Origin: Lachnospiraceae bacterium
GTDB lineage: Bacteria > Bacillota > Clostridia > Lachnospirales > Lachnospiraceae
Direction: 5' to 3'
NCBI GenBank assembly: GCA_900764225.1
Contig: CAAFNG010000207.1
Span: 1 to 13,366, forward strand
DNA: 13,366 nucleotides
Shown one piece after another: positions 1-13,163 of this stretch (its first letter is position 1; every line of letters begins with the position of its first letter). The translations under genes and the position numbers were made by a program. The notes below the pieces were generated by a model, which saw only the letters and a program-made list of their open reading frames with translations, did no database searches and was not told the DNA's origin.

Positions 1-162
1 ATCACCATGGTTCTTCACCCGGCCAGCCATACCCACCGTCAAATGAACGATGCACAGCTGGCAGAGGCAGGCGTTTCTCCGGGAATGATCCGTCTCTCTA
101 TCGGTATCGAAAATGCCGATGATATCATCAAAGATCTGGAACAGGCACTTGAAAACGCATAA
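1..162 (+). CDS. metY: O-acetylhomoserine sulfhydrylase (MetY-type), C-terminal end
   Basis: This is the last 53 codons of a PLP-dependent Cys/Met metabolism enzyme; the start lies left of the window. The family makes homocysteine from O-acetylhomoserine and sulfide in the cytoplasm. The visible tail has the family's typical C-terminal pattern: a HPASHTHRQM stretch, then a GMIRLSIGIENADDII segment, then a helix ending DLEQALENA. It is the only plus-strand gene I accept. It ends in TAA and is followed 10 bases later by a strong terminator. It looks like ordinary chromosomal flanking DNA, unlike the minus-strand element that fills the rest of the window. A related cystathionine gamma-synthase type enzyme cannot be excluded from so short a tail. 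Confidence 0.85.
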   Translation: MTMVLHPASHTHRQMNDAQLAEAGVSPGMIRLSIGIENADDIIKDLEQALENA

Positions 163-172
163 GCACCACATA

Positions 173-208
173 AAAAAGGCTGTAAACCCTTGAGTTTACA
201 GCCTTTTT
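173..208. terminator. Rho-independent terminator after metY, usable on both strands
   Basis: A perfect 15-bp inverted repeat (AAAAAGGCTGTAAAC paired with GTTTACAGCCTTTTT) surrounds a 6-base loop. The arm ends in a run of T on the plus strand, and the mirrored A run gives a U tract on the minus strand. It therefore terminates metY and can also stop transcription arriving from the minus-strand genes. Confidence 0.93.
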
Positions 209-229
209 ATTATATTTCGTTATTCGAAA

Positions 230-301
230 TTAGAATTTGCCAGCGTCAGCAGCTTCCTGTACGTAAACAGTAATGCCTGCAAAATCAATACATATCGCCA
301 T
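230..301 (-). pseudogene. Possible 3' stump of a chromosomal gene at the element junction
   Basis: A minus-strand open frame starts with ATG at 301-299 and ends with TAA at 232-230, encoding 23 residues ending in ITVYVQEAADAGKF. No ribosome binding site precedes the ATG. It reads like the C-terminal end of a normal soluble protein rather than a free peptide, and its stop lies just ahead of the shared terminator, as expected for a chromosomal gene convergent with metY. I infer that the rest of the gene was separated by insertion of the element to the right. I do not recognise the parent family. It could also be a chance open frame. Confidence 0.35.
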
Positions 302-366
302 TTTTGTTGCCTACTTGTTTCCTATTCACCAATTTTGGTACTTTTTCAGCACTTCTCAGACCAAAT

Positions 367-606
367 TTATACCTCGATTCCGTCATAAACATAACCCGTT
401 TCCTGCCAGAATTTCATAGGTGATATGTAATAATCATACTGGCTGCTTCCATCTTTCTTGAAAGCTACTCCAAACGTGAGTAATCCCTGGATGATTCCCT
501 GTCTCACAAACTGAGGATCTTTCTTCATTACTCTTGCAGCTACATTCACCGGGACATTTTCGCCAGTAAATCTTGGTACTTCTAACCATACCTTCTTTTC
601 TTCCAT
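367..606 (-). CDS. Small helix-turn-helix-like DNA-binding protein, possibly excisionase-like
   Basis: This 79-residue protein starts with ATG behind GGAGGGAGAG. It has a central stretch, NVAARVMKKDPQFVRQGIIQ (about residues 21-40), that reads like a winged-helix or MerR-type recognition unit, then a Tyr-rich strand region and a PMKFW segment. I recall similar small proteins from Lachnospiraceae phages, usually annotated only as DNA-binding. It is the last element gene before the junction, a place where excisionases are often found, but excisionase activity is only an inference. No integrase is visible in the window. It follows a small membrane-protein gene with a gap of 3 bases. Confidence 0.7.
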   Translation of the reverse strand: MEEKKVWLEVPRFTGENVPVNVAARVMKKDPQFVRQGIIQGLLTFGVAFKKDGSSQYDYYISPMKFWQETGYVYDGIEV

Positions 607-609
607 TTG

Positions 610-798
610 TCAACTCTCCCTCCAATATAATTTTCCATATACCCAGTCCAGTAATTTTAATGCGATCATTCCCGGTGCCAGCATTACCAACACCACCAAA
701 AAGAAGAATCCGGCCAGCACTGTTGCCGCAAGCTCACCTTTCCTGGTTTTATCGCACCGCTCGCCGTCACATTCATTTCCTCGCTGCCACATTTCCAT
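610..798 (-). CDS. Small single-span membrane protein
   Basis: This 62-residue protein has a charged, Cys-containing N-terminal part (two Cys near residues 10 and 15), one hydrophobic segment at about residues 23-47 (LAATVLAGFFFLVVLVML followed by APGM), and a short Trp/Tyr-rich C-terminus. The ATG at 798 overlaps the preceding gene's TGA by one base (TGATG). A second ATG at 792 sits 8 bases after AGGGG and fits the ribosome binding site better, so the true start may be 792. A GTG at 801 is also in frame. Function unknown; a holin-like or accessory membrane role cannot be told from sequence. Confidence 0.65.
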   Translation of the reverse strand: MEMWQRGNECDGERCDKTRKGELAATVLAGFFFLVVLVMLAPGMIALKLLDWVYGKLYWRES

Positions 799-1040
799 CA
801 CCCCTTTTCTTCGAGGGCTTTCCTGACTGCTTCCATGATGCTCTCCGTTTTTGTTGGCCCGATCCCTTTTACTGTCAAAAGGATTTCTCTTAGCTCATCT
901 GCCTTCAATCCTTCGGAGTCTTCCTTGCCCTGGTTGTATGCGTTCATGTAATAACGTGACAGGTAGTTGGACATATCCTGGTGATCCATTTTCTTAATTT
1001 CCTTGTACATCTTTCGGTTCAAAACCATCTGCTTTGCCAT
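798..1040 (-). CDS. Small helix-hairpin-helix protein
   Basis: This 80-residue protein has a basic N-terminal helix region (MVLNRKMYKEIKK) and a C-terminal helix-hairpin-helix motif, VKGIGPTKTESIMEAV, at about residues 57-72. This motif binds DNA backbones non-specifically in many repair and replication proteins. The GIGP hairpin is intact. It starts with ATG 2 bases after the previous stop; the ribosome binding site (GAGGGCGAG) is moderate. The protein may be a DNA-binding accessory factor of the element. That is an inference from the motif alone, since it is too short to carry a catalytic domain. Confidence 0.75.
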   Translation of the reverse strand: MAKQMVLNRKMYKEIKKMDHQDMSNYLSRYYMNAYNQGKEDSEGLKADELREILLTVKGIGPTKTESIMEAVRKALEEKG

Positions 1041-1042
1041 GA

Positions 1043-1282
1043 CTACTCGCCCTCTCTTCCGTCAATTCGATATACCGCATCATCGTAATAAGGGTATATC
1101 CGTCCATTATTTCTTCCGGTTCTTGTGTCTCTGATGCGGAACGGATCTTCTCCTAGGCCATCCACTTCCTTTCCCATGAATACTACACCTTTTCCACTCA
1201 GCGGATGATTTTTGCATCTGAAGTGTACAACATCACCCACCTGCATCTCTCTTCCATCTTTCGCATATTTACCTGTTTTCAT
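1043..1282 (-). CDS. Small hypothetical protein, possibly with an SH3-like barrel
   Basis: This 79-residue protein starts at ATG 1282, chosen because it forms an ATGA overlap with the upstream stop and has GGAAGG in front of it. A longer open frame to 1351 lies inside the upstream gene. The segment MQVGDVVHFRCKNHPLSGKG followed by a VVFMGKE strand resembles KOW or SH3-like folds of small phage proteins, and the end is Tyr/Arg-rich. I do not recognise the family. Function unknown. Confidence 0.65.
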   Translation of the reverse strand: MKTGKYAKDGREMQVGDVVHFRCKNHPLSGKGVVFMGKEVDGLGEDPFRIRDTRTGRNNGRIYPYYDDAVYRIDGREGE

Positions 1283-1719
1283 GTCTCGCCTTCCTCTACT
1301 TTCCTTATGATCTTTAACTGTTCCAACGGAACAAGCCTTGTTTTGTTGCACCCGTATGCTACAATGGCAACCTTTTTCTGCTCTATATCATTTCGGTTTA
1401 CAAAATCAACTTCTACTCCATCTGGCCTGCAAGCACTATCACAAAACAATTCTGCTTTCAGCGTAATAAGCTTCATACCTATGACAACGCCTACAAATCT
1501 CTTCTCCACTGCCTCGTAATATGTTTTTACGAAATCGCTACCGCCCCATTCTTCCGGTTCTACTTTTCTTTCCTTTTCTTCGGCATTTTCGTCAACATAG
1601 TAATAAACATCGGAGTATTGTTCAGAGTGCCGGATATATTTTCCGTCCTTAATTCTTTTCATATAAGTATTGCACTCTACAACTTGAAACATATATTCAT
1701 TATTCCTGCGTAATTTCAC
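1279..1719 (-). CDS. Hypothetical protein, GTG start
   Basis: This is a 146-residue protein that I do not recognise. It is rich in Glu, Lys, Tyr and Val, with an acidic middle (VDENAEEKERKVEPEEW) and a C-terminal region of alternating strands (KKVAIVAYGCNKTRLVPLEQ). The GTG at 1719 is preceded 10 bases earlier by AGGAGG and overlaps the end of the upstream gene by 20 bases. An ATG at 1692 (MFQVVECN) is the alternative start, giving 137 residues. A closer ATG at 1724 leads to a stop after two codons, so it is not the start of this gene. Confidence 0.65.
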   Translation of the reverse strand: MKLRRNNEYMFQVVECNTYMKRIKDGKYIRHSEQYSDVYYYVDENAEEKERKVEPEEWGGSDFVKTYYEAVEKRFVGVVIGMKLITLKAELFCDSACRPDGVEVDFVNRNDIEQKKVAIVAYGCNKTRLVPLEQLKIIRKVEEGET

Positions 1720-2182
1720 TGCATGTCCGCCTCCTGTCTCTTGCTGCTGATCTAAACATCATAAGCAGCATTTCTGATACTGGTCTGCTCCGATCATGTC
1801 TCTTGGCTTTCTTTATGCAGGTTAATTCTGTTCCATCCAAAACATATACACCAACGTAGTGTGGGACCTCCAATGAAATCGTTGCGTAAATCTTCTCCGG
1901 CATTACCAGGTAATTATAATCTCCGAGGAAATTCAAGCCATGCCCCGAGCGAAAATCCTCTACAGATGATTTCACTTCATAACAGTAAAAGTCTCCTTTT
2001 TCTATTCCGGACACCGTATTATTAACCGGTTTATATCTCATATAATCAACTCTGACTGCATGGTTTGTGGAGTAATCAAATGTCACTTCCTTAGCCCAAT
2101 ATATCCGGGGATCATTGTACGGATTGATTTTCTTTTCAAGTGCCAGAGACAACGTAGTTGTTATCTCTGGTCTTCTGCTCAC
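1700..2182 (-). CDS. MmcB-like PD-(D/E)XK nuclease-fold protein
   Basis: This 160-residue protein has the core of the MmcB/PD-(D/E)XK nuclease superfamily. Asp46 lies in a RVDYMRY strand, followed by Glu69 and Lys71 in CYEVKSSVEDFRSG and a strand-helix unit LNFLGDYNYLVMP. The EVKSS-x-x-DF arrangement is the hallmark of MmcB-type proteins, which are linked to DNA repair in other bacteria. The catalytic D...ExK set looks complete. It starts with GTG, overlaps the ParB stop by a GTGA junction, and has AAAGGAG 8 bases upstream, so it is probably coupled to ParB translation. A basic tail ends the protein. The substrate is unknown. Confidence 0.75.
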   Translation of the reverse strand: MSRRPEITTTLSLALEKKINPYNDPRIYWAKEVTFDYSTNHAVRVDYMRYKPVNNTVSGIEKGDFYCYEVKSSVEDFRSGHGLNFLGDYNYLVMPEKIYATISLEVPHYVGVYVLDGTELTCIKKAKRHDRSRPVSEMLLMMFRSAARDRRRTCSEITQE

Positions 2183-3534
2183 TCTTTCTTCTCCTTTCTG
2201 TACAGTTCAGATGTTCCATCCAGCACCTGACGTTCCTTTTCATCTTCAAAATACCAACCATACGGCTCAAACACCTCATATCCTTTCAAGAGTGCGTCTC
2301 CTTTGTTTTTATTAAAGACCAAGTTGTAATCATACGGTTCGTTGCAAATTTTCATTGAATTGTGCAAAATAATCATCATCTGATGTAAGGAACTAAGTTT
2401 TCCCGCTGACTCATCTGCTGCTTTTTTCTCTTCTGGTGAAGATTCATAGTAGCTCTTTTTCAAATAGAAATCTCGCACTGTGCTTGCATAAATGTAACTG
2501 CCAAGTGCCATCATAGCTTCCCATATCTTTTCTTTTACTTCAGATTCGTCTTTAACCGGGCTGATTTTCCCCGAAATAATATTCTCCAGAAATTCTTTTC
2601 TTCTGGCACTGCTTTCTTTTAATATCGCTTTGATTTTCCTTTTTGCCTGATCCTTTTCCTTTTGCTCTTTTTCCCAAGGTGAAAGTCCTTTCTTTCCTTT
2701 TGGAATTTTTGTAATAATTCTCAAGCTACGATAATATACTAAGAAAAATTTTTCTTCTTCTGTCTTTGGAAGTTTGATCTGCTCCGGAACGTCTTTGTCT
2801 AACTCATACTCCTTAATAGTATTCCATTTTCCGCTCCAAATTTCATTTTCTGCTGACTTCGGGGCAGCCTTAATGCCTTTCTTCTTCAACATCTCTTTCA
2901 GTTTTTTTGCATTTTCATTTCGTTTAGCTTCTGCTGCAGCTGCTTGCGCTCTGCTAACCAAGTCTCTTGAACTGGTTGCTTCTCTGAGAATTTTATCCCT
3001 CGTCTTAATATCTTTCACTTTTTCCAGTTCGTATAAATCCTTCAGCGTTAACTGAAAATTTTCATCCTGCTCCTTCTTTTTAAGTTCATCCTGGTTTAGC
3101 TTCGCAATATTTAACCTACGGCGAATGGTAGTCTTGCTGAATCCAGTTTTCTCAGCAATTTGTTCCTCAGTATCTCCCAAATCAAGCATAAGCTGAAATC
3201 CCTGGGCCTGCTCATAAATTGTCAAATCGCTGCGCTGCATATTTTCTTCCAGCATAATTGACAGCTGTTCTTTTCGGCTTAATCCTTCAGCGATCCTGCA
3301 TGGCAATTCTTCCAGGCCTGCTAACTTTGATGCTCCATGCCGGCGGTTCCCAATCAACGCATAATACTCTCCAGGCTGTTCTTCTACCGGAACAACCGTT
3401 AAATTCTGTAAACACCCCTGTTTTTTCATCGATTCTGCCAGCTCCGTCAAATCTCCGAGATCCTTTCTTGGATTCTCCGGGTGCGTATGGATGTGATCTA
3501 TTCCGATATAAACTATATCTCTTCTTTCTTCCAT
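2179..3534 (-). CDS. ParB/Spo0J-family protein with long C-terminal region
   Basis: This 451-residue protein starts at ATG 3534, 7 bases after GAGGAG. It has the ParB N-terminal CTPase fold: NPRKDLGDLTELAESMKKQG at residues 21-40, the nucleotide-binding box GNRRHGASKLAG at 62-73, and MLEENMQRSDLTIYEQAQ at about 94-111. A helix-turn-helix follows at 121-141 (TEEQIAEKTGFSKTTIRRRL). The long remainder is Lys/Glu-rich with predicted helices. ParB proteins load onto DNA near parS and help partition plasmids or regulate genes. No ParA gene is adjacent, and a matching parS was not identified. ParB-like proteins on integrative elements may instead regulate transcription or stabilise a circular form. 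Confidence 0.9.
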   Translation of the reverse strand: MEERRDIVYIGIDHIHTHPENPRKDLGDLTELAESMKKQGCLQNLTVVPVEEQPGEYYALIGNRRHGASKLAGLEELPCRIAEGLSRKEQLSIMLEENMQRSDLTIYEQAQGFQLMLDLGDTEEQIAEKTGFSKTTIRRRLNIAKLNQDELKKKEQDENFQLTLKDLYELEKVKDIKTRDKILREATSSRDLVSRAQAAAAEAKRNENAKKLKEMLKKKGIKAAPKSAENEIWSGKWNTIKEYELDKDVPEQIKLPKTEEEKFFLVYYRSLRIITKIPKGKKGLSPWEKEQKEKDQAKRKIKAILKESSARRKEFLENIISGKISPVKDESEVKEKIWEAMMALGSYIYASTVRDFYLKKSYYESSPEEKKAADESAGKLSSLHQMMIILHNSMKICNEPYDYNLVFNKNKGDALLKGYEVFEPYGWYFEDEKERQVLDGTSELYRKEKKE

Positions 3535-3563
3535 GGCTTTTCTCCTCATTCTCATATTTGAAC

Positions 3564-3581
3564 GGCGGCTTTCCAGCCGCC
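3564..3581 (-). repeat. DGR-type hairpin/cruciform just downstream of the variable region
   Basis: On the minus strand a 7-bp perfect inverted repeat, GGCGGCT and AGCCGCC, flanks the 4-base loop GGAA. It lies 7 bases past the stop codon of the C-type-lectin-like gene and about 34 bases past the variable block. No T run follows, so it is not a terminator. Similar short GC-rich hairpins with 4-base loops are required for target recognition in the Bordetella phage DGR and are found next to many DGR target genes. Confidence 0.75.
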
Positions 3582-3588
3582 ATATCAG

Positions 3589-4749
3589 TTACTCAGTTTT
3601 CAGTTTTCTAAAATAAGCGGAGCGGAAACCGATGCAGCCGTCGGCGTAAGCCCGAGGGTAGTTCAGGCTCACGTTGAACACGCCAGCACGGGAAGTGTCG
3701 CTCCAGCTGCCCCCGCAGAACGGCAAATATTCTCCCTCAGTGCTATCAATATAGCAGTAGGCTTCCGGCTCTCCAGGATACAGAGCCAGCTCTTTCAGTG
3801 TTTCGCTCTCGCAATCAATATTAACATCTTCCCATCTACATCCATCGTATCCCTCTTCGTGATCACTTTCAGCAAGGAATTTGATACCGCCATCGGAAAC
3901 GCTTACTCTAATAGACTTTCCGGAATCATCTCTTACCGGTTCCCAGTTATCTCCTTCAAGGGTAAGATCAATATCCAATGCTGCATCGTTATTCTTTGCC
4001 ATCTCCAGCTGTCCGTCTTTTATTCTCAGGCCTCTTACCATTTCCCATACGTTTCCGGACAGATCGTGAACGCCTTCCAATGTATGATCGTGGGTCCATG
4101 TTGCCGGTCCTGATCCGGTTTTGGTCTTTCCGGATTCTCCTGCTGGCTCTCCATGTTCTTCCGGGTTTGCATGGTACTTTCCATAGTTCGTGTTGCCATG
4201 TGGCAAAGTACCATTCTTCAAGCTGAGGTTCGCAAGTAATCCCCATTCAGCTCTTGTCATAAGATGCCATCCCTCTCCCTTTGAAAAACAAGCTCTCGCC
4301 GCCTCATCATTGGTAATTCCTGTCCATGGCTTCTGCATTGGCAGGCTATAAGGCTTTCCGTTAATTTCGCAGTTCTCATAGACAGAAATGTAAATTTCAT
4401 CGTATTCTTCATCTCCAATGATAAACGCTGCATTTGTTTTATCGCTTCCACCGAACAGCTCCTTATTTGTCACCTTGCGGAATCTGTGCATGAATGACGG
4501 GATGCCGGCATTGTCGTAAATTGCCACTACTGCGTGTTCCAGGTTTCCGCTGATGGAATGGGTTGGTGTGATCTGCTCCTCAGTATTCTTTTTTCCGGAA
4601 GGTCTCTCCTGGATTACCGGACAAATATTGATCTGCATATCATCTCTTGCCGCATAATCCTTAATTGCTTCCATCTGCTCTGCAACGAATTTTCTCTTTC
4701 CTTTAAACTTTGCTGAAAACTCACCATTCATAAACTTTGCTTTTGCCAT
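3589..4749 (-). CDS. DGR target protein: formylglycine-generating-enzyme / C-type-lectin fold
   Basis: This 386-residue protein starts at ATG after AGGAGG (8-base spacing). It has an N-terminal part of unknown fold (about 1-130), then a SUMF1/FGE-sulfatase, C-type-lectin-like domain: WTGITNDEAARACFSKGEGW and HLMTRAEWGLLANL near 170-200, GVHDLSGNVWEMVRGL near 235-255, and CGGSWSDTSRAGVF through CIGFRSAY at 345-379. Known DGR variable proteins use this fold, with the variable residues in the last 50. True FGE enzymes have catalytic cysteines in the segment after the GGSW motif; here that segment (RAGVFNVSLN) has none, so a ligand-binding role is likelier than catalysis. No signal peptide or membrane span is visible. 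The gene sits between a Rha-like gene and parB. Confidence 0.88.
   Translation of the reverse strand: MAKAKFMNGEFSAKFKGKRKFVAEQMEAIKDYAARDDMQINICPVIQERPSGKKNTEEQITPTHSISGNLEHAVVAIYDNAGIPSFMHRFRKVTNKELFGGSDKTNAAFIIGDEEYDEIYISVYENCEINGKPYSLPMQKPWTGITNDEAARACFSKGEGWHLMTRAEWGLLANLSLKNGTLPHGNTNYGKYHANPEEHGEPAGESGKTKTGSGPATWTHDHTLEGVHDLSGNVWEMVRGLRIKDGQLEMAKNNDAALDIDLTLEGDNWEPVRDDSGKSIRVSVSDGGIKFLAESDHEEGYDGCRWEDVNIDCESETLKELALYPGEPEAYCYIDSTEGEYLPFCGGSWSDTSRAGVFNVSLNYPRAYADGCIGFRSAYFRKLKTE
3616..3714 (-). other. Candidate DGR variable region (VR) at the 3' end of the target gene
   Basis: These 99 bases encode residues 346-378. They are about 66% GC by my count, much richer than neighbouring genes. 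Candidate variable codons are AGC GAC ACT TCC at 350-353, AAC at 359, AGC at 361, AAC TAC at 363-364 and GCT TAC GCC GAC GGC TGC at 367-372. Almost all end in C, as expected if the template carries AAC, ACC or AGC codons and adenines are randomised. The fixed codons between them (CGT GCT GGC GTG TTC; ATC GGT TTC CGC TCC) contain few or no adenines. The template itself is not in this window. Confidence 0.8.
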
Positions 4750-4761
4750 GTTCTTTTCCTC

Positions 4762-5436
4762 CTATGCTGTGGCTAATTCTCTATTCAAAAGTATCTCAAA
4801 TACTTTGAACCCATAAATAAATCCCTGCATTTCTGCCTCGATTGCAACTCCCATTACCGAGTCCTCTACTTTTCTTTTGGCTGCTACATCATCATTCAGC
4901 CCGCCCATTGCCTTATAAAACTCTTCGTATTTTGCCCCCAGCTCTTCGATTTCTCTATTCTCGATTGCCGGGCCTTCGATAAACTGGTCGAACAGATTCT
5001 TTATGTAACTGCACTCTGTTCTGGATCTTCCCTTCATCAGGATATTTTCCTGCGTTTTTACTCCATGGAAATGCTGTGCGATTAAATCATTGAATTTCCC
5101 AAATCCTTCCACGAAAGCCTTACTACGTTTTTCCTCGGCACATATCTTTTCAATGTAAAGCTGGCAGCCTTTTTCACTCAGTTTCCAGATTGGATGTTTT
5201 CTCTGGTTTCTATACGGTCTATACGCAATCTCGAACTCCTTCTTTTCATCTTCGGACGCTTCCGCATTGTAAAACCGAGAAATCCGATTGAAAATTCTCA
5301 TGTGCGTACTCTGGAAAATTTTTGCGATTTCCCAACTGGTAAGTGGCTCTGCAGGTTGCGTTGTTCCCTCTGCTACTTTTCGGATAAGCTCTGCGGCCTT
5401 TCCGATTTCTTCCGGCGTGATCTTAATTTCGTTCAT
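4762..5436 (-). CDS. Rha-like phage regulatory protein with DUF6809-like C-terminus
   Basis: This 224-residue protein starts at ATG 5436, which forms an ATGA overlap with the previous stop and has AAAGGAG upstream; an in-frame extension to 5478 has no such signals. The N-terminal part has a winged-helix-like pattern, LTSWEIAKIFQSTHMRIFNRI, followed by the strand HPIWKLSEKGCQLYIEKI, the logic of phage Rha-type regulators. The C-terminal part (about 140-220), with ENREIEELGAKYEEFYKAM and MQGFIYGFKVFEILLN, resembles the helical DUF6809 family. It lies 12 bases upstream of the DGR target gene, so the two are probably cotranscribed. A DNA-binding regulator is the best guess; the combination of the two parts is unusual to me. 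Confidence 0.65.
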   Translation of the reverse strand: MNEIKITPEEIGKAAELIRKVAEGTTQPAEPLTSWEIAKIFQSTHMRIFNRISRFYNAEASEDEKKEFEIAYRPYRNQRKHPIWKLSEKGCQLYIEKICAEEKRSKAFVEGFGKFNDLIAQHFHGVKTQENILMKGRSRTECSYIKNLFDQFIEGPAIENREIEELGAKYEEFYKAMGGLNDDVAAKRKVEDSVMGVAIEAEMQGFIYGFKVFEILLNRELATA

Positions 5437-5684
5437 CCTTCCAACTCCTTTCTCAAAGCCTGCAGAAGAGGATGCCAAGGCCTGGCTCCTCTCATGCGCT
5501 TCACGACTTTTCTCAAATCAATCTCTTCCTTGCTGATGCTTTCCATTCCGATCAGCTTATCGCTGTTCCAACGGATCAGCTTATCCTTGAATCCATCGGT
5601 CAACTTTACTTCTCCAGCTGCGCACTGTTTGTCCTCGAACATGACCCACTTTTTCCCATTAAGAATACAATAACCAACAATCAT
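5433..5684 (-). CDS. Small hypothetical protein
   Basis: This is an 83-residue protein that I do not recognise. The N-terminal half reads as short strands (MIVGYCILNGKKWVMFEDKQ), the middle has LTDGFKDKLIRWNSDKLIG, and the C-terminal half is a basic helix (LRKVVKRMRG ... LLQALRKELEG). The start forms an ATGA junction with the preceding gene, with GAGG 7 bases upstream, and its own stop forms an ATGA junction with the Rha-like gene, so it is translated as part of a coupled chain. Confidence 0.65.
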   Translation of the reverse strand: MIVGYCILNGKKWVMFEDKQCAAGEVKLTDGFKDKLIRWNSDKLIGMESISKEEIDLRKVVKRMRGARPWHPLLQALRKELEG

Positions 5685-6001
5685 CTCTTGTCCTCGCTTT
5701 CAATATCAGCGCTTTCTCCGGGAAAACAATTTCCGCAATATTTCCATACCTTATCTCCTACTTTCACGAATGTAGAATAGGTTGCCATATATTTTCCTGT
5801 TTTCGGGTTTAACCTACTGTCGTAAGGTTCTCCTACCTGCAGATATCCTGCTCCCATATTTCTCGGTGGCAAAATATTCAAAAAGTACCAGTAGACATCT
5901 TCGTCTACCAGCTCCCCAGGCTTGCAAAAATCATCCCAGTTTTTCCCGCTTTCTTCCCATCCTTTAAGTGTCTTGATCTCTTTCTGCTTTTCTTCGCTCA
6001 T
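5681..6001 (-). CDS. Small hypothetical protein of mobile-element type
   Basis: This 106-residue protein starts at ATG 6001, which lies 10 bases after AAGGGAG; an ATG at 6010 is too close to that site. It contains LKGWEESGKNWDDFCKPGEL, VDEDVYWYFLNILPP and YLQVGEPYDSRLN, and ends with a strand-rich part, TYSTFVKVGDKVWKYCGNCF. I recall a family with the same opening and GEPY motif in Lachnospiraceae mobile elements, always without known function. It overlaps the upstream gene by 38 bases in another frame, the longest overlap in the window. Confidence 0.7.
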   Translation of the reverse strand: MSEEKQKEIKTLKGWEESGKNWDDFCKPGELVDEDVYWYFLNILPPRNMGAGYLQVGEPYDSRLNPKTGKYMATYSTFVKVGDKVWKYCGNCFPGESADIESEDKR

Positions 6002-6215
6002 TCTCTGCATACTCCCTTTCTTTTATTGCTATGTAGTCTTTGACATGAAACCCATTCAAAATATTGATTGCCTGCAGTTCTGATAGTCCGCACCTCCTTT
6101 GAAGTTCCTGCCGCAGTTCTCTTCTCTCGCCTGTATCTTGCCTACCATTTTCCGGAAGATTTTCTGCCAATATTCTGTATTCATTGGCGATTTCTGCTGT
6201 GAGAAGTTCTGGCAT
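5964..6215 (-). CDS. Small helical hypothetical protein
   Basis: This 83-residue protein starts at ATG 6215, 7 bases after GGAGG, and overlaps the upstream TAA by one base (TAATG). An open-frame extension to 6308 lies inside the upstream gene and is rejected. It is rich in Glu and Arg: AEIANEYRILAENL, GERRELRQELQRRCGLS, then ELQAINILNGFHVKDYIAI and a charged tail. The LSELQAINILNGFHVKDYI stretch resembles recurring motifs in small phage proteins, but I cannot name a function. Confidence 0.7.
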   Translation of the reverse strand: MPELLTAEIANEYRILAENLPENGRQDTGERRELRQELQRRCGLSELQAINILNGFHVKDYIAIKEREYAENERRKAERDQDT

Positions 6216-7126
6216 TATACAGCCTCCAGTTCTTCTTTCACTCGGTTCAATGCGTATTTGCCGGCCGGATTCAACATTCTCTGCCATGCCCCCTGGGATG
6301 GTGCCCATTTAAAACCGTTCTTTTTCAAAACGGCTCTAACATCTGCCTCCGGCTTTTCATCAAAAATAATCTGTAATCTCATAGCTTCCACATTCTCGAC
6401 AACCTTGAACAGCTCAAATTCCGTTTCTTTTGTTCCCTTCTCCTTGACTGCTTTCAAGCTTTTCAATCTTTCCTCTACTCTATGGATATTTGCGTTATTG
6501 TTCTGCAGGGCGTATGCTGGAAATCCAACCCTTCCCATAAAATCCGGTGTTCTGAGTTCCTGGATCTGCTCATCGGAATATCCCAGGATTTTAAGCTCCT
6601 CGTCTCCCTTTTTGGTGTCCTTCAAACGGATGGCTTTATTGACAGCTCTCATTCTTTCCTGGTTTTCTTTTAAAGCATCCAGTTTCTCTTCCAGGCGTTC
6701 TATGGCATCCTCATCTGAGGACTTGATAATATCCTTTCCTCTCAAAATGCCCTTGATCTTATCCGGAATTTTCTGCGTCTCAGCATAAAACTGATGGTTT
6801 TTCTCCCAGGCCTGTACCTGTTTTTCTTTCTTCTTCACTGGGAAATTGCCGGCTCCCGAAATCATAACAGAAGGGCATCTGCAGCCGATATTACTCTCCC
6901 GGTTCATATACTCAGCCATTCTCTTTGAATATCTCTTCGCCAATGCTTCAACTCTTTCCGCTTCTCTCGGTCTTGCTTCTGCAACTTTCTCGGCCAAGTC
7001 ATAGACTTTATCGACATACCCTCTGTATTCTTCGGTCTTACTGCCTACCTTGTAATCGCTCATGGACATCATATCGTGTGCGATTCTGGCCTGCTCTTCG
7101 TTAATTGTGCAATATAATCTTTCCAT
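6215..7126 (-). CDS. Coiled-coil mobile-element protein with a C-terminal NGFKWAPSQGAWQR module
   Basis: This 303-residue protein starts at ATG 7126, 8 bases after GAGGGAGG and 1 base after the upstream stop. The N-terminal part (about 1-130) has an Arg/Glu-rich helical region ending in MNRESNIGCRCPSVMISGAG and a FPVKKKEKQ segment. The middle is a long coiled coil (about 140-250). The C-terminal part (about 255-303) has LQIIFDEKPEADVRAVLKKN and GFKWAPSQGAWQRML, a module I recall at the ends of plasmid, phage and conjugative-element proteins, some with DUF3560. It may handle nucleic acid, but the function is unknown. It is one of the longer genes of the cluster. Confidence 0.75.
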   Translation of the reverse strand: MERLYCTINEEQARIAHDMMSMSDYKVGSKTEEYRGYVDKVYDLAEKVAEARPREAERVEALAKRYSKRMAEYMNRESNIGCRCPSVMISGAGNFPVKKKEKQVQAWEKNHQFYAETQKIPDKIKGILRGKDIIKSSDEDAIERLEEKLDALKENQERMRAVNKAIRLKDTKKGDEELKILGYSDEQIQELRTPDFMGRVGFPAYALQNNNANIHRVEERLKSLKAVKEKGTKETEFELFKVVENVEAMRLQIIFDEKPEADVRAVLKKNGFKWAPSQGAWQRMLNPAGKYALNRVKEELEAV

Positions 7127-7127
7127 T

Positions 7128-7457
7128 TCAGCACCCTCCCTCAAACTCTTCCATTTTCTCTCTGTCAAATTTCATTGCCGGATAAGTGCAATATCCGCTA
7201 CGTCTCATTCTTCCTGTCGATTTTGCCAGTCCTTTCGTCTCCAGGAAATTCACTACCCAAGGGCAATTATTTGTGTCCACATATGCCTCGTTCTCTGCTA
7301 AAGTTGGATCACACAGGCAAACGGTAATTCTTGCAACCGGTCCCTCTCTTCTGCTGATGATTTCAACTGCGATACTGCCATCCATCTGATACTGCCCTAC
7401 TCTTAATGTACAATCTGTATATGTTGCGTATCTTGTCTTAACCTCTAATAATGCCAT
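7128..7457 (-). CDS. DUF4313 family protein
   Basis: This 109-residue protein starts at ATG, 8 bases after AGGAGG. It matches my memory of DUF4313: an N-terminal strand region with a short Tyr-rich hairpin, a strand ending ARITVCL, the signature ENEAYVDTNNCPWVVNFLET, and a C-terminal RRSGYCTYPAMKFD. The AYVDTNNCPW and GYCTYP motifs are the most conserved parts. The family is found on conjugative elements and phages of Clostridia and has no established biochemical role. It is followed after 1 base by the coiled-coil gene. Confidence 0.85.
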   Translation of the reverse strand: MALLEVKTRYATYTDCTLRVGQYQMDGSIAVEIISRREGPVARITVCLCDPTLAENEAYVDTNNCPWVVNFLETKGLAKSTGRMRRSGYCTYPAMKFDREKMEEFEGGC

Positions 7458-7475
7458 GCTATATTCCTCCTAAAA

Positions 7476-7661
7476 TTATGCTGTGATCGGCTCTCTGTGC
7501 TTTTCCATCCTTACATCTGCTCTTCCTGCAAGATTCTCTCTGTACTCCTTGAGGCTTCTCTTTGCATCAGCTCTGGTATATTCGCTGTTCTCACATTCCC
7601 AGCCATATCCCCAGTTTGTCATTATGTCCCACCGATCCTTTGTCTTTCTCTGATAGCTCAT
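7476..7661 (-). CDS. Small conserved mobile-element protein
   Basis: This 61-residue protein starts at ATG, 8 bases after GGAGG. It opens with MSYQRKTKDRWDIMTNWGYG, followed by WECENSEYTRADAKRSLKEY, and ends in a basic segment. I recall a family with the same RKTKDxWxIMTNWGYGWE opening in Lachnospiraceae mobile elements. Function unknown. It follows a 78-base gap that contains one copy of the CGCAAGTGCGAG repeat, so it may have its own regulated start of transcription. Confidence 0.75.
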   Translation of the reverse strand: MSYQRKTKDRWDIMTNWGYGWECENSEYTRADAKRSLKEYRENLAGRADVRMEKHREPITA

Positions 7662-7702
7662 TCATTCTCCCTCCTTCATCTGCGAGTCTTCATTTTTTAT
7701 TT

Positions 7703-7716
7703 CTCGCACTTGCGAG
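7703..7716. promoter_or_regulatory. Operator-like inverted repeat, copy 1
   Basis: On the minus strand this is CTCGCAAGTGCGAG, with 6-bp arms CTCGCA/TGCGAG around AG. It lies in the 78-base gap 5' of the small gene at 7476-7661. It shares 12 identical bases with copies at 8075-8086 and 8125-8136. A half-site (CTCGCA on the minus strand) occurs 17 bases downstream, at 7681-7686. Possible weak promoter boxes flank it, but none is convincing. Confidence 0.7.
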
Positions 7717-7739
7717 CATTGTGGGTAAAAAAATAACAC

Positions 7740-8021
7740 CTACCATTCCAGATTCTTGATTTCATCTGCTACTTTCGCATATCCATTGCTTTCAAGCAAC
7801 CATAAGTCAAACTGTACTGCATGATCGTAAAAACTTACTCCGCTATCGTTCATGCTATAAAGCTCATCTCTGATTTCCATTACCATTTCCTTGCTGCCGG
7901 TTGCAATCATAACAGCTACGATGGCCTGAACTTTTGCCTGTCCAGCATTCCATTCCTCTGAAAAAAGTTCTTTCTCGTCTCTTGCTGCTAATGCTGCTCT
8001 GTAATCGTTCATGTTATACAT
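7740..8021 (-). CDS. Small hypothetical protein behind the regulated promoter
   Basis: This 93-residue protein starts at ATG 8021, 8 bases after GGAGG; an in-frame TTG at 8036 lies before that site and is rejected. The sequence is helical: MYNMNDYRAALAARDEKELF, AKVQAIVAVMIATGSKEMVM and a C-terminal LLESNGYAKVADEIKNLEW. I do not recognise it. It is the first gene after the strong promoter at 8068-8096, with a leader of about 40 bases, so it begins a transcription unit rather than joining the upstream chain. Confidence 0.75.
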   Translation of the reverse strand: MYNMNDYRAALAARDEKELFSEEWNAGQAKVQAIVAVMIATGSKEMVMEIRDELYSMNDSGVSFYDHAVQFDLWLLESNGYAKVADEIKNLEW

Positions 8022-8067
8022 AATCTCTACCTCCAAGATGTTTTATTTGTTGTTTGATTATGTATAT

Positions 8068-8096
8068 ATTATAACTCGCACTTGCGTATTTGTCAA
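8068..8096 (-). promoter_or_regulatory. Sigma-A promoter with operator in the spacer
   Basis: On the minus strand TTGACA (8096-8091) and TATAAT (8073-8068) both match the consensus perfectly and are separated by exactly 17 bases. The spacer contains CGCAAGTGCGAG. This is the only consensus promoter I found in the minus-strand cluster. It would drive the gene at 7740-8021 and probably the genes beyond it. A protein bound to the repeat would cover the spacer and block polymerase. Confidence 0.92.
8075..8086. promoter_or_regulatory. Operator-like repeat, copy 2 (inside promoter spacer)
   Basis: CGCAAGTGCGAG on the minus strand, with core dyad CGCA-AG-TGCG, lies between the -35 and -10 boxes. 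Its position makes repression by steric block the simplest reading. Confidence 0.75.
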
Positions 8097-8109
8097 TAGT
8101 TTTGCTCTA

Positions 8110-8367
8110 TTATTTCAAATTATTCTCGCACTTGCGTTTTTCAATTTTCACATCATAGCCAGCAGCCTTGACAATCCTCACGAAATTCTCATATCTCATA
8201 TTTCCGGAAATTAGTCTGCTCACTCTCTGTCTGGTGATTCCCATTTTCTGAGCCAGCTGAATCTGCGTCATTCCTTCCTTCTCCATCATTTTATTGATGA
8301 TCTCTGCCGCATCTTCACCTCTGATCTCCGTTACGTTTTCCCTCGCCGGATAAACTACCCTGCTCAT
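8110..8367 (-). CDS. XRE-family helix-turn-helix regulator
   Basis: This 85-residue protein starts at ATG 8367, an ATGA overlap with the upstream stop and 7 bases after GGAAGGAG. The helix-turn-helix is at about residues 33-54 (MTQIQLAQKMGITRQRVSRL), followed by ISGNMRYENFVRIVKAAGYD. It fits the Cro/C1 fold of phage repressors and of HigA-type antitoxins. No HigB-like toxin is recognisable next to it. Its last codons contain copy 3 of the CGCAAGTGCGAG repeat, and the regulated promoter begins 14 bases past its stop. It is therefore the obvious candidate to bind that repeat, though this is inferred from position only. Confidence 0.88.
   Translation of the reverse strand: MSRVVYPARENVTEIRGEDAAEIINKMMEKEGMTQIQLAQKMGITRQRVSRLISGNMRYENFVRIVKAAGYDVKIEKRKCENNLK
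8125..8136. promoter_or_regulatory. Operator-like repeat, copy 3 (inside the 3' end of the XRE gene)
   Basis: CGCAAGTGCGAG on the minus strand, 28 bases upstream of the -35 box. It is part of the coding sequence for the regulator's basic C-terminal tail (KRKCEN). The distance between the starts of copies 2 and 3 is 50 bases, close to five helical turns, so both could be bound on the same face of the DNA. Confidence 0.65.
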
Positions 8368-8708
8368 TTCCAAACTCCTTCCTTTTTCAAAACCTGTTTT
8401 ACCGCTTCTTTCATCGTGTCAGCAGATGCTACATTTGTGTCCTGGTTCTTTTCATACAAACTTGCGATCTTACAGATGATGTCCTGATTGTCATTTAAGC
8501 CTCCAGCAATACCTTTCGGAATCCCCCAGTAATCACAGAACTCTTCAACAGCATTCTTTATATCCTCTTCTAGGTATTCTCTCTCTCTGATCCGGTATGC
8601 TTCTTCGATCTCTGCCTCCGTCAACTCGATTCTCACCGTTCTTTCATCGCAGATTGCAATGTTATTGTACTCTCCGACTTTTTTTATTATATTTCTTTCA
8701 ATTACCAT
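8364..8708 (-). CDS. Small hypothetical protein with an acidic helix
   Basis: This 114-residue protein starts at ATG, 5 bases after GGAGG, inside the last codons of the upstream zinc-ribbon gene. The middle has RIELTEAEIEEAYRIREREY, then LEEDIKNAVEEFCDYWGIP, and the end is a Lys-rich helix, MKEAVKQVLKKEGVWK. I recall the L-T-E-E-I-E-x-A-Y-R pattern from Lachnospiraceae phage and plasmid proteins of unknown role. It is coupled through ATGA to the XRE gene, which suggests it might act with that regulator. Confidence 0.7.
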   Translation of the reverse strand: MVIERNIIKKVGEYNNIAICDERTVRIELTEAEIEEAYRIREREYLEEDIKNAVEEFCDYWGIPKGIAGGLNDNQDIICKIASLYEKNQDTNVASADTMKEAVKQVLKKEGVWK

Positions 8709-9027
8709 GCCTTCCTCCGTTCATCAGGGCAGCTACACCTTCCGGATAATTCTCATCAAACCAGTGCCAGATTTCTATTCTGTCTGTCCCTTCTGGAAAT
8801 CCCAGGAACTCTTCCAAGATAGCGTCTGCGTTATCAATGGGGATTTCTCCAAAAATCTGCCACAGCTTTTCCGATTCCTGGCTGTTGAAGCAGTCAGAAA
8901 AATCAACTGTTGCAATGCTATCTACTTCCTTGCACCGAGGACAATATTCCTCATCATTTCCATAATGCAGGCCCAGGTCGGAGTCCCTTCCGATCCACCC
9001 ACACTTCCTACATCTCCAGATCAACAT
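8698..9027 (-). CDS. Zinc-ribbon hypothetical protein
   Basis: This 109-residue protein starts at ATG, 9 bases after GGAGG, overlapping the previous gene by 20 bases. Cys6, Cys9, Cys29 and Cys32 (CRKC and CPRC) form a zinc ribbon. The rest is acidic and aromatic: CFNSQESEKLWQIFGEIPID and DRIEIWHWFDENYPEGVAAL. The second part resembles small phage proteins that I cannot name. A role in nucleic-acid or protein binding is possible from the ribbon, nothing more. Confidence 0.75.
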   Translation of the reverse strand: MLIWRCRKCGWIGRDSDLGLHYGNDEEYCPRCKEVDSIATVDFSDCFNSQESEKLWQIFGEIPIDNADAILEEFLGFPEGTDRIEIWHWFDENYPEGVAALMNGGRHGN

Positions 9028-9550
9028 TTCCCATTGCCTCCCATTCTTCTGTCAATGCCACTGTCTCTCTCTTTGCAAATACTGCGGTGCTTAAATCAAT
9101 TCCGTAGAAAATTTCCCGGTTTCTCACCTTTTCCTCGAAGCGTTTTCTACAAAGTAGTTCGTTTCCAAATACTCCTCCAAGCTGTACATATCTTCCATCG
9201 TCAATCCGTTTTGCCAGCACTGTGTACTCTGTGTCTGAAGTATTTACAGTAACAAGTCTGCTCTGTTCTTCCTCTCCTGCAGTCCATTTTATCTTCTGGC
9301 CACATTTCTCACAGTAGGGTTTCTTTCTCTGATCGACTACTCTTTCAGCCACAATTCTTCTCTCTCCCACAATGCTACTGCAGCAAGGGCAACGGAACCA
9401 ATTATTTACCTGGGTTTTTGCCTCGCCATGTCCATCCGCATAATCAACAAACAACACGCCTCTTTCGTTCATGCAAAGGACCGGCGGCATTGCTACTGAT
9501 TTTTTTAATGCTTCCAAAATTTCCTGATCGTTCACAGTTCTTTTCCTCAC
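9008..9550 (-). CDS. Zinc-ribbon hypothetical protein, GTG start
   Basis: This is a 180-residue protein. The zinc ribbon has Cys54/Cys57 (FRCPCC) and Cys80/Cys83 (YCEKC), with a basic linker of about 22 residues. Before it, residues 20-50 form strands (PVLCMNERGVLFVDYADG); after it comes a strand-rich domain with TEYTVLAKRIDDGRYVQLGG. The GTG at 9550 overlaps the stop of the 17-residue peptide gene (GTGA), the same kind of junction used elsewhere here. A second GTG at 9535, 9 bases after GAGG, is the alternative start. The family and function are unknown to me. Confidence 0.75.
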   Translation of the reverse strand: MRKRTVNDQEILEALKKSVAMPPVLCMNERGVLFVDYADGHGEAKTQVNNWFRCPCCSSIVGERRIVAERVVDQRKKPYCEKCGQKIKWTAGEEEQSRLVTVNTSDTEYTVLAKRIDDGRYVQLGGVFGNELLCRKRFEEKVRNREIFYGIDLSTAVFAKRETVALTEEWEAMGNVDLEM

Positions 9551-9600
9551 TTTCTGTACCCAACGTATAACAAAAACATTAACATTAATATAGCTCCCAT
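9547..9600 (-). CDS. 17-residue hydrophobic peptide
   Basis: The reading frame MGAILMLMFLLYVGYRK has its ATG 8 bases after AGGAGG, one of the best ribosome binding sites in the window. Residues 2-14 are almost all hydrophobic, with a basic end, so the peptide would span or sit on the membrane. It fills the gap between the HNH gene and the zinc-ribbon gene, starts 11 bases after the HNH stop and ends in a GTGA overlap with the next start. It may be a real small membrane protein, a toxin-like peptide, or a short frame whose translation feeds the next gene. Confidence 0.6.
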   Translation of the reverse strand: MGAILMLMFLLYVGYRK

Positions 9601-9611
9601 ACTCTCGCCTC

Positions 9612-9932
9612 CTATAAATATGATCTTCCGTATCTCTTCCGAAATGCTTCCCTGGCTTTTCTTGATTCCTGCTGGCTATTGGCAGAAATCCACTCTTTTT
9701 CCCAAATAGCCTGTCCGAGCATTTTTGATAATCTCTCAGCCATTGGATTTTCGTGGATTCTGCAGAGCTTCTGTCCCATGTTATGACAATTATTGCAAAC
9801 TGGGATTTTCAAGCCATCCTTTTCACTAAGTTCTCTACCTGCAGTTCCAAAGATTAAATGGTGTTCTGCTTCTGCCTGTCTTCCGCAGAAAATGCAGATT
9901 TCCGGATATTCTGTCACAATTCCTTTGCTCAT
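9612..9932 (-). CDS. HNH endonuclease
   Basis: This 106-residue protein starts at ATG, 7 bases after GAGG. It has Cys13-x2-Cys16 (CIFC), the HNH first strand EAEHHLIFG (His24, His25), and Cys46-x2-Cys49 followed by His50 and Asn51 (CNNCHN). Both zinc knuckles and the HNH core look complete, so it is probably active. HNH proteins of this size cut DNA and occur in phages (often with terminase), homing elements and defence systems. No terminase, portal or methylase gene is visible nearby, so its role here is open. The C-terminal part is a basic helix. Confidence 0.88.
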   Translation of the reverse strand: MSKGIVTEYPEICIFCGRQAEAEHHLIFGTAGRELSEKDGLKIPVCNNCHNMGQKLCRIHENPMAERLSKMLGQAIWEKEWISANSQQESRKAREAFRKRYGRSYL

Positions 9933-9941
9933 TCTCTTACC

Positions 9942-10328
9942 TCAACTATATACAATTTCTTCAAACAATGCGTACTGGATAATTTCGTCTGCTGCAATTT
10001 CATCAATCATTCCTGGATCAACTCCCCAGGTTCCATCATGCCGTCTTGCAACTGGCATATAATCTTCTGAAAGATATTTTAGCAACCCTGTCTTAAAATT
10101 TTCTAACGTCAGGGAGCGATATGTTTCCTCCTCAATTTCATACAATTCCAACTCGCCGCCTCTGCTGATCTGCTCGCTGGCGTATTCTCCAAGGTATCTC
10201 CCTACTACGTTGACTTCCGAACACCAACACTGCAATGTCGAACTGTCTAACGCAGTTGACATGATATCGTCTACATCTTCTTGTGTAATCACGATTTCTG
10301 CCGTTATTTTTAAGATAATATCATCCAT
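9942..10328 (-). CDS. Conserved phage/element protein
   Basis: This 128-residue protein starts at ATG 10328, 6 bases after GGAGG; a longer frame to 10517 is inside the upstream gene and is rejected. It contains VITQEDVDDIMSTALDSS, LQCWCSEVNVVGRYLGEYAS, SEQISRGGELELYEIEEET, and an end with EIAADEIIQYALFEEIVYS. I recall this family (the CW-C...VVG...GEYASEQIARGGEL pattern) in phages and plasmids of Clostridia. Its function has not been established to my knowledge. The downstream HNH gene follows after 9 bases. Confidence 0.8.
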   Translation of the reverse strand: MDDIILKITAEIVITQEDVDDIMSTALDSSTLQCWCSEVNVVGRYLGEYASEQISRGGELELYEIEEETYRSLTLENFKTGLLKYLSEDYMPVARRHDGTWGVDPGMIDEIAADEIIQYALFEEIVYS

Positions 10329-10329
10329 C

Positions 10330-10716
10330 TTAATCCTCCAATTCCGTGCCGCATACCGGGCACTTTTCAATCTCTTCATCATAAGTCTGAACATATCCTG
10401 CGCAATGCGGACACCAAGCAATTTCACCATTTGCTTTCCAGTCTTCCAGCAAACTTTCTGGATGCTGCCAATCCAGTTCCTCGAACATTGTCTCGGCCAA
10501 TTCTTCATCTCCGGCAAGTATTTTCAGTATGTCGTTCCTTGTATACTTTTCGTCCGACAATTCCGGAATATAGCAAACATCGTCTGGCCTGTTCTGAAAA
10601 GCATCTTCATCCTTGAATATCCATCCTTGCCGGTAATAATCCCTATCGATTATCTCTGGCTCATTACCTCTTTCCGGTGAATAGCTTCCGATCAGAAGCA
10701 TTTTCTTGCTCTGCAT
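10330..10716 (-). CDS. Hypothetical protein with C-terminal zinc ribbon
   Basis: This 128-residue protein starts at ATG, 7 bases after GGAGG. The N-terminal 95 residues are acidic (DEKYTRNDILKILAGDEELA and ETMFEELDWQHPESLLEDW). Cys102, Cys105, Cys119 and Cys122 (WCPHC and CPVC) make a C-terminal zinc ribbon. It is one of three zinc-ribbon genes in 2 kb and ends 1 base before the next start. The GGAGGATTAA signal in front of it is nearly the same as that of the next gene. Function unknown. Confidence 0.75.
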   Translation of the reverse strand: MQSKKMLLIGSYSPERGNEPEIIDRDYYRQGWIFKDEDAFQNRPDDVCYIPELSDEKYTRNDILKILAGDEELAETMFEELDWQHPESLLEDWKANGEIAWCPHCAGYVQTYDEEIEKCPVCGTELED

Positions 10717-10718
10717 AT

Positions 10719-10955
10719 TTAATCCTCCGAATCTGCATAATATGAATCAAATGCAATGCCGGCCTTAATCAACTTATCTTCCAGATAGTTTCCATAACAC
10801 CAGCCATCACCGTCTTCCCAGTAACTATCCCTTGCTTCCTGCAGAACTTTCTCTGCTCTCGCAGCATCTTCTTCGCTCACAATGAAAATGCAATCCATCC
10901 ATTCATTCATTTCTGAACGGATTCTAATGCAGGTGTCCTCAATTCTCTCTACCAT
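10719..10955 (-). CDS. Small acidic hypothetical protein
   Basis: This 78-residue protein starts at ATG 10955, one base after the upstream stop; GAGGAGG lies 12 bases before it, slightly far. A TTG at 10976 gives a longer frame but no ribosome binding site. The sequence has a helix, ERIEDTCIRIRSEMNEWMDC, then VSEEDAARAEKVLQEARDSY and an acidic aromatic end, SYYADSED. I do not recognise it; the EDAARAEKVL helix followed by DGDGWCYG suggests a small alpha/beta protein. Confidence 0.7.
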   Translation of the reverse strand: MVERIEDTCIRIRSEMNEWMDCIFIVSEEDAARAEKVLQEARDSYWEDGDGWCYGNYLEDKLIKAGIAFDSYYADSED

Positions 10956-10956
10956 A

Positions 10957-11406
10957 TCAGCGCCAAACCTCCTCAAATTTTAAAAATTCCAAGTCTTCAT
11001 CGCTATAGCCATTAGTTCTCAAATATGCCTTTGCTTCTACCTCGTTTTCAAACAGCTTTACCTTCCGGCCTTTTTCCATCAACCACTCATAAGGGTTCAG
11101 CGTTATTCCTTCGATGTGTCGGCCTATGCAGATATACTTCCTGATTCCTACCCATTGAAAAATCTTCTCCTTTGCAAATTCTTCAATGGCTTCCTGGTAT
11201 GTTTTCTCCGACTCATACCAATCGGTTCGCCCGAAGTTTTCTTCAAACTCATTGGCCCAAACCACAAACATTTGCTTCCAACCCATGCTGTCTGTTTCGC
11301 TCAGCTTTGGAAATTCTTTCTGCAGATTAACATATGTCCATGTAATCTCAATCAGATTTTCCGTTGCTCTATTAAACTCTGTCTGCTGAATATCTGAATA
11401 TGCCAT
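10957..11406 (-). CDS. Hypothetical protein
   Basis: This 149-residue protein starts at ATG, 9 bases after AGGAG. The N-terminal 75 residues are helical and aromatic (FNRATENLIEITWTYVNLQK, MFVVWANEFEENFGRTDW). The C-terminal half has FQWVGIRKYICIGRHIEGIT, KVKLFENEVEAKAYLRTNGY and an acidic helix, SDEDLEFLKFEEVW. The FENEVEAKAYLRTNGYSDEDL stretch resembles helical repeats of phage proteins, without a named family. Function unknown. Confidence 0.7.
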   Translation of the reverse strand: MAYSDIQQTEFNRATENLIEITWTYVNLQKEFPKLSETDSMGWKQMFVVWANEFEENFGRTDWYESEKTYQEAIEEFAKEKIFQWVGIRKYICIGRHIEGITLNPYEWLMEKGRKVKLFENEVEAKAYLRTNGYSDEDLEFLKFEEVWR

Positions 11407-11410
11407 CTTC

Positions 11411-11803
11411 TCACTCTCCTATGTAATAACAAGTAAAATTCCAATGGTCACCGAACTCGTAGTAAAGTCCTCTCTTCTCAAAGATTCTGTCGAACTTTTT
11501 CTTGATTCCTGGGTTTGTACCGTACCAGAGCATATGACAAACGGTGCCTTCAAAAGCCATGCTGAGGATATGATCTTCTGCCACATTCTCAAAATATCTT
11601 CTTGGGTCCTCGTTTTCTCTCACAACCAGATGTTCCGGATCATTGTAATAAAATTCGCCTGTCTCCTTGTCGTGTGTGTCGAAGCATTTTCCATTGAAAT
11701 AAATCTGAGTGTCCACCCACATATCGTGTTCCAGAAGAAACGTCCGGATCTCCACTGCAAGTTTTTCAATCTGCTTCTGTGTCAGCTTTGCTACCGTATT
11801 CAT
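11411..11803 (-). CDS. Hypothetical protein, Tyr/His-rich
   Basis: This 130-residue protein starts at ATG in an ATGA junction with the preceding gene; AAAGGCGG lies 7 bases before. It opens with a helix, LTQKQIEKLAVEIRTFLLEH, then strands DMWVDTQIYFNGKCFDTHD, EDPRRYFENVAEDHILSMAF and an aromatic end, YYEFGDHWNFTCYYIGE. I recall similar proteins in Lachnospiraceae elements, all uncharacterised. No catalytic motif stands out. Confidence 0.7.
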   Translation of the reverse strand: MNTVAKLTQKQIEKLAVEIRTFLLEHDMWVDTQIYFNGKCFDTHDKETGEFYYNDPEHLVVRENEDPRRYFENVAEDHILSMAFEGTVCHMLWYGTNPGIKKKFDRIFEKRGLYYEFGDHWNFTCYYIGE

Positions 11804-12368: not shown

Positions 12369-12372
12369 GCCC

Positions 12373-12926: not shown

Positions 12927-12947
12927 TGTTTATGTCCTCCTACTTGC

Positions 12948-13145: not shown

Positions 13146-13163
13146 TTTTCCTTCCTCGCTCTC

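Follow-up and report, generated by a model that had tools for sequence, protein, structure and literature searches.

The gene at 3589-4749 of a 13,366-nucleotide stretch of Lachnospiraceae DNA (contig CAAFNG010000207.1; the whole stretch is here called the window) is, with a probability of about 0.9, the remote one of two target genes served by a diversity-generating retroelement (DGR) of a temperate phage. Its host would be a gut bacterium, probably a member of the Lachnospiraceae, as the names attached to relatives of the flanking gene suggest. In the mechanism that we propose, a phage reverse transcriptase (RT) acting with Avd would copy an adenine-rich template RNA while misreading its adenines, and the cDNA would replace the 3′ end of the target gene, steered by the 3′ end common to the variable region (VR) and by a hairpin behind the stop codon. 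Up to 15 codons for the exposed side of a C-type-lectin fold would thereby be rewritten, and in relatives the same template would also rewrite a paralogue encoded in the tail module. A preliminary description of the window had proposed a DGR variable region in a C-type-lectin-fold protein, which is borne out by an adenine-only template match in a relative; it had missed that the target is remote rather than adjacent to the RT cassette.

The nearest record, IMGVR_UViG_2936918026_000002 (30,869 bp; hereafter G001), is 97.1% identical to the window over 220-5966. It contains a homologous target gene and two further copies of the VR-like stretch, one of which is the template repeat (TR), at 13922-14034. 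The window VR differs from this TR at 13 of 113 positions, and all 13 are TR adenines, of which the block holds 26 (hypergeometric p = 2.7e-10). When the target genes of the window and G001 are compared, 17 of 106 VR sites differ, all at TR adenines, against 5 of 1,055 sites elsewhere (Fisher p = 1.1e-14). Beside the template lie an RT gene (406 aa; RVT_1, E = 1.3e-20) and a gene for an Avd-like protein (phrog_3206, E = 2.6e-19; bAvd, E = 3.4e-9, just under the Pfam cut-off; the NCBIfam Avd model also under its cut-off); an RT gene next to the template had been anticipated in the preliminary description. A second target of the formylglycine-generating enzyme (FGE) fold, 348 aa long, is encoded behind the baseplate genes of G001, near the template and RT. 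A scan of genome contigs for relatives found one.

Gene order over most of the window is shared by a further close relative, UViG_2899876472_000002; its VR differs from that of the window at 17 sites, compared with 18 of 1,055 in the gene body. Its template (L004:2603-2715) has TAC and AGC where G001 has AAC and AAC, and hence two adenines fewer. The T and the G recur in the two VRs of this phage, which would follow if its own template had been the source of both, and these changes make a natural marker of template-to-VR transfer.

Fifteen codons of the window VR correspond to codons with adenine in the G001 template, the first being 344 and the last 373 (template codons 11 AAY, two ACT, and two ATC), which by the genetic code permits approximately 2e15 protein variants. 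Alignment A1 has 56 rows, two of them cassette targets and 54 of the remote type, namely the window protein with 53 homologues. Over the 54 remote-type rows, mean entropy was 2.61 bits at 14 template-adenine codons, 0.49 bits at the other VR codons, and 0.79 bits at residues 66-344 (Mann-Whitney p = 1.2e-8). The VR thus varies much more than the remainder of the gene, as had been predicted. The earlier placement of the variable block at 3616-3714 was correct in location and slightly narrow in extent, since the template-matching block spans 3615-3727. Among the 14 residues then listed as variable, 11 (350, 351, 352, 359, 361, 363, 364, 367, 368, 370, and 372) have a template adenine; 353, 369, and 371 do not, and 344, 348, 354, and 373 had been overlooked. 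The GC-rich, adenine-poor C-terminal block described at the outset is real and beyond chance: codons 345-378 have 66% GC, 79% GC at third codon positions, and 13% coding-strand adenine, compared with 45%, 44%, and 34% in codons 1-344. A compositional artefact was rejected as the origin of this block. GC richness alone would not establish a DGR; the match to a template does.

Table 1. Features of the window (coordinates count from its first nucleotide)
Feature	Position	Strand	Remark
DGR target gene (remote target)	3589-4749	minus	386 aa; FGE-type C-type-lectin fold
Variable region	3615-3727	minus	113 bp matching the G001 template; all differences at template adenines
Invariant VR 3′ end	3615-3632	minus	18 bp, adenine-free, identical in the G001 TR; place of the initiation of mutagenic homing (IMH) element, putative role
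Hairpin ggcggct-GGAA-agccgcc	3564-3581	minus	7 bp beyond the stop codon and 33 bp beyond the VR
ParB-like protein gene	2179-3555	minus	next gene downstream of the target
Rha-like phage regulatory protein gene	4762-5478	minus	ends 12 bp before the target gene on its upstream side; Pfam score under the cut-off
Temperate-phage genome part	220-13366		accessory/DNA-metabolism side; stops ~4.3 kb before the RT place of relatives

The elements that would guide homing are present as well. The rule given for phage DGR targets in Guo et al. (2011; PMC3240598) calls for a GC-rich stem of 7 to 10 bp with a GRNA tetraloop, 4 to 34 bp from the VR, and the same mechanism and hairpin rule are those of the Mtd DGR of Bordetella phage BPP-1 (PMC3240598). 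The window hairpin fits this rule in stem length (7 bp), loop (GGAA), and distance (33 bp), and the stretch holding it folds with z = -5.1. By a strict scoring rule, a hairpin was found in 27 of 45 remote loci and in 195 of 2,250 random stretches; hairpins of 7 bp or more containing no fewer than 5 G/C occurred in 25 of 45 and 32 of 2,250, respectively. These counts include near-duplicates, and 45 of the 46 remote loci listed were scored, one being without the anchoring motif. Three of the remote-locus hairpins have a GTTA loop, outside GRNA.

We fetched 80 of 136 confirmed viral loci with relatives, ranked by similarity to the window protein, a ranking that also shapes the contrast between remote and cassette targets. 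A target was labeled remote if no RT or template lies within ~3 kb, so that the label is presumptive where flanks are short (621 bp at L037; 1.3 kb downstream at L038). Fourteen of 16 RT regions, from 15 of the records with an RVT_1 match, hold a template matching the remote VR, 5.4 to 79 kb away on the contig. Templates were found otherwise in G001, Dulem virus 37, Lagaffe, 3300031555_010881, 2833214634, G425, G326, G190, and G073, the last being a draft with its template on a different contig from the remote VR. Altogether, a matching template is present in G001 and 22 further records or genomes, with an RT nearby in all 22 except 2833214634 (L021). There the template lies only ~3 kb from the remote VR, past a collinearity break, on a contig where no RT was found; the sequence leaves the near-identical L074 abruptly at 13916 (L021:13916-14400), at a deletion or an assembly join.

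Over 24 remote VRs (that of the window, scored with the G001 template, and those of 23 records or genomes), 322 of 600 template adenines were changed, compared with 10 of 2,092 other bases. Not counted were L014 (with a partial RT and without a template), the second of the RT regions on the record containing L029, G120, G359, G408, the second G073 hit (L116), and the 26 of 43 records without an RT match, except that of L021, whose template was found. VRs in L109-L114 and L116 were placed by coordinates, the protein pattern having matched none there. A cassette VR also aligned to the same TR in 19 of the 24, with 261 of 475 adenines and 9 of 1,657 other bases changed, and in 16 of those 19 we located, beside the RT, a target gene that belongs to this family. 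Within a single phage, the remote VR matches the cassette VR at 169 of 475 template adenines (36%, with 32% expected), and the outcomes at the two VRs are therefore nearly independent.

A tree built without the VR separates 44 remote targets (with two unlabeled proteins) from 48 cassette targets (with three unlabeled) by a branch supported at 100/99; L046 and L047, too short once trimmed, and four duplicate remote rows were left out. The two types also differ at the N terminus: ahead of a shared motif, remote-type homologues have 53 to 86 residues (median 73) and cassette targets 20 to 28 in 14 of 15 cases, the fifteenth lacking the motif. Judged from these sequences, remote and cassette targets are old paralogues. 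Six cassette-target records longer than 40 kb (G441, G444, G445, G446, G448, and G449) showed no second full-length remote-type target, a result limited by how these records were chosen; a VR-like match of 34 residues was additionally seen in G446. That the window gene might instead be a cassette-adjacent target was rejected: neither RT nor TR is present in the window, and in G001 a distance of 5.9 kb separates the target gene from the RT gene, and ~8.4 kb separate its VR from the TR.

Several observations weigh against our interpretation. The window contains no RT gene and no TR (repeat search over 3300-13366; template scan of the whole window, best score 15, against a minimum of 87 among the template rows for remote VRs). 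RVT_1 was found in just 17 of the 43 records bearing a remote-type gene (16 above the cut-off), and the only genome among them, the metagenome-assembled genome (MAG) G044, gave no RT match; among viral records longer than 40 kb, 12 of 13 have an RT, one of the 12 as a partial match under the cut-off. The drafts G120 and G359 are without a template in the stretches scanned (~20 kb on each side; for G359, 20 kb of contig), and no close RT relative was found in G120 (none) or G359 (at most 31% identity). A whole-genome DNA search of G120, G073, and G190 was queried with the G073 VR and so is no proper test for G120. The template scan rewards adenine mismatches by design, and the BLAST matches provide the unbiased check. 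Finally, 18 of 45 remote loci have no strict-rule hairpin.

Fragments and drafts that lack an RT would also be accommodated if the window gene were a former DGR target, frozen after its prophage lost or damaged the DGR. We consider this improbable: the gene frame, VR, and hairpin of the window are all intact, and its VR differs from those of both close relatives at 17 sites each, against 5 and 18 of 1,055 in the gene body. Both relatives, moreover, keep an open RT of 406 aa, with the RT gene ~4.3 kb and the TR 5.7 to 5.8 kb past the point equivalent to the right end of the window. A TR and RT are probably retained in the genome from which the window comes, and homing there is probably active.

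The target protein matches FGE-sulfatase (PF03781) weakly in Pfam; the 56 rows of A1 gave this family alone, bar one weak match (E = 0.007) in one row. PADLOC returned no defense family and NCBIfam no family for the target protein, and Rfam none for the window. The nearest protein cluster (P0001) has 6,730 member sequences. An AlphaFold2 model and a match to TaqVP of Thermus aquaticus (PDB 5vf4; PMC6328139) place the VR at the C terminus of the C-type-lectin fold, the VR residues 348-358 being modeled with a predicted local distance difference test score below 50. TaqVP, the closest solved structure, is prophage-encoded, has an FGE-type C-type-lectin domain, and shares the register of variable positions; it is ~28% identical to the window target and has nine variable residues, compared with 15 codons here. 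The PF03781 match would suit an ordinary formylglycine-generating-type enzyme with a C terminus made GC-rich by compositional noise or ordinary divergence. We rejected this as practically untenable, because differences from an RT-adjacent template fall at adenines only and because the positions aligned through TaqVP with the Ser-Cys-Cys triad of FGE are S348, D351, and R354, both cysteines being absent.

In this family the second VR is set apart from the structural module, in the company of genes for DNA modification, replication, or accessory functions. Around 22 remote targets, 104 proteins encoded no more than 2.6 kb away were scanned (up to five plus-strand ORFs per locus, each of at least 100 aa). 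Among their most frequent families were methyltransferases, MazF/PemK, SSB, AAA/DnaC-like proteins, RecU, dUTPase, and ParB, with no tail family among the matches listed (25 of 182 PHROGs and 25 of 58 Pfam families). Sixty neighbors of 13 cassette targets, scanned from the 70 listed, gave matches to RT, Avd, endolysins, a tail fiber, and families without assigned function (first 25 of 99 PHROGs). The order Rha-like, target, ParB-like of the window recurs in a Eubacteriales MAG (L009). The remote target of Dulem virus 37 is located between a methyltransferase/XRE stretch and the integrase, and that of Lagaffe behind the integrase and ahead of exonuclease, Gam, and ERF. No methyltransferase match was obtained among the window proteins scanned.

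From this position outside the structural module, the separate clade, and the lack of any signal- or membrane-like stretch, we favor a non-virion role in phage-host conflict, which we hold at roughly even odds. The remote paralogue would bind, in changeable fashion, molecules of the host or of rival phages, and would do so inside the cell, or else at an early stage of infection or during lysogeny. Less probable, though a serious competitor, is a second virion receptor-binding protein that is merely encoded apart from the tail module, so that both targets sit on the particle and widen receptor recognition. Such a protein would share its fold with tail-displayed targets, as this one does, and a PHROG (phrog_2889) is common to the remote and tail-module targets; the C-terminal part also weakly matches the tail-protein PHROG phrog_5302 (E = 1e-6). 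In the phage of the window, furthermore, the target lies downstream of the lysis genes on the same strand, where late transcription could reach it. The shared fold and this gene order count against our interpretation too. A virion protein is harder to reconcile with the separate clade, the longer and different N-terminal part (53 to 86 residues compared with 20 to 28), and neighbors that are DNA-modification, replication, and accessory genes, not tail genes.

The accessory region near one prophage end, together with the integrase that marks a relative as a temperate phage, would be compatible with a protein that the lysogen makes and displays on its surface, where it might, for instance, be a variable factor excluding other phages. 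We regard this as rather improbable: by a simple hydropathy threshold, a signal- or membrane-like stretch occurs in 0 of 115 homologues, which speaks against surface display.

Distal second targets of phage DGRs are already known in print. Closest to the present case is the Faecalibacterium phage FP_Lagaffe (Lagaffe_CP, CP11, Lelie; PMC11792537), which has one TR and two VRs, one on the tail side beside Avd and RT and the other in a distant gene with an FGE domain. Its remote protein is homologous to the window target (40% identity), and the 11 changes in its remote VR all fall on TR adenines; the phage differs from that of the window in host and in its neighbors, integrase, exonuclease, Gam, and ERF. 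Variation at both VRs is reported for Lagaffe_CP and CP11, in a section that mentions no remote-target clade (PMC11792537). Quimbyvirus (Benler et al. 2021; PMC8008677) likewise has a second DGR target with a C-type-lectin domain distal to the structural module, among methyltransferases and other defense-related genes. It is a Bacteroides phage with the second target on the opposite strand and an RT reported as three overlapping frames, and we liken it to the window by description. Double-VR DGRs in induced gut prophages have been described for four species, the second VR being distal from the RT and near counter-defense genes (DNA methyltransferase; PMC12629997); the DGR-carrying species of that study mostly infect Bacteroidota, and they too are likened to the window by description. 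Two-target cassettes with tentaclins are also in print (PMC10743442). In listings and selected passages of open-licence PMC papers, we saw no report of remote targets that form a clade of their own while sharing a template; a search aimed at anti-defense DGR targets yielded largely unrelated papers.

The surroundings of the remote target appear to be an accessory hot spot. Relative to G001, ~7 kb of small window genes are largely absent (window 5966-13019, G001 7771-7835), and relative to UViG_2899876472_000002 (at about 13790), ~4 kb (9190-13214) are. Window 6215-7168 encodes a DUF3560-like protein (under the Pfam cut-off) that matches a primase-named PHROG (E = 7e-89) and, weakly, a PADLOC candidate model (E = 3e-4). 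Beside the prophage, at window 1-179, is a gene of the O-acetylhomoserine aminocarboxypropyltransferase type, as in UViG_2899876472_000002. The flanking gene of G001 (1056-1538) is one that we take to be YbaK-like. With different flanking genes in the window and G001, these close phages apparently occupy two different sites.

More tentatively, temperate phages of gut Clostridia may have kept, since an old duplication, an intracellular second DGR target, an adaptive binder that tracks changing host defense proteins or rival phages and is rewritten from the template independently of the tail paralogue. If so, one retroelement would drive two arms, receptor choice outside the cell and a changeable antagonist inside. 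Large DGR surveys search near the RT, and the approach of Roux et al. (2021; PMC8144416), as described there, would not detect remote targets; the remote-target clade is a sequence handle for finding them whether or not an RT is in view. With it, the use that a phage makes of a hypervariable protein encoded apart from the tail becomes a testable question, and a shared template with nearly independent outcomes at two VRs amounts to a natural paired experiment.
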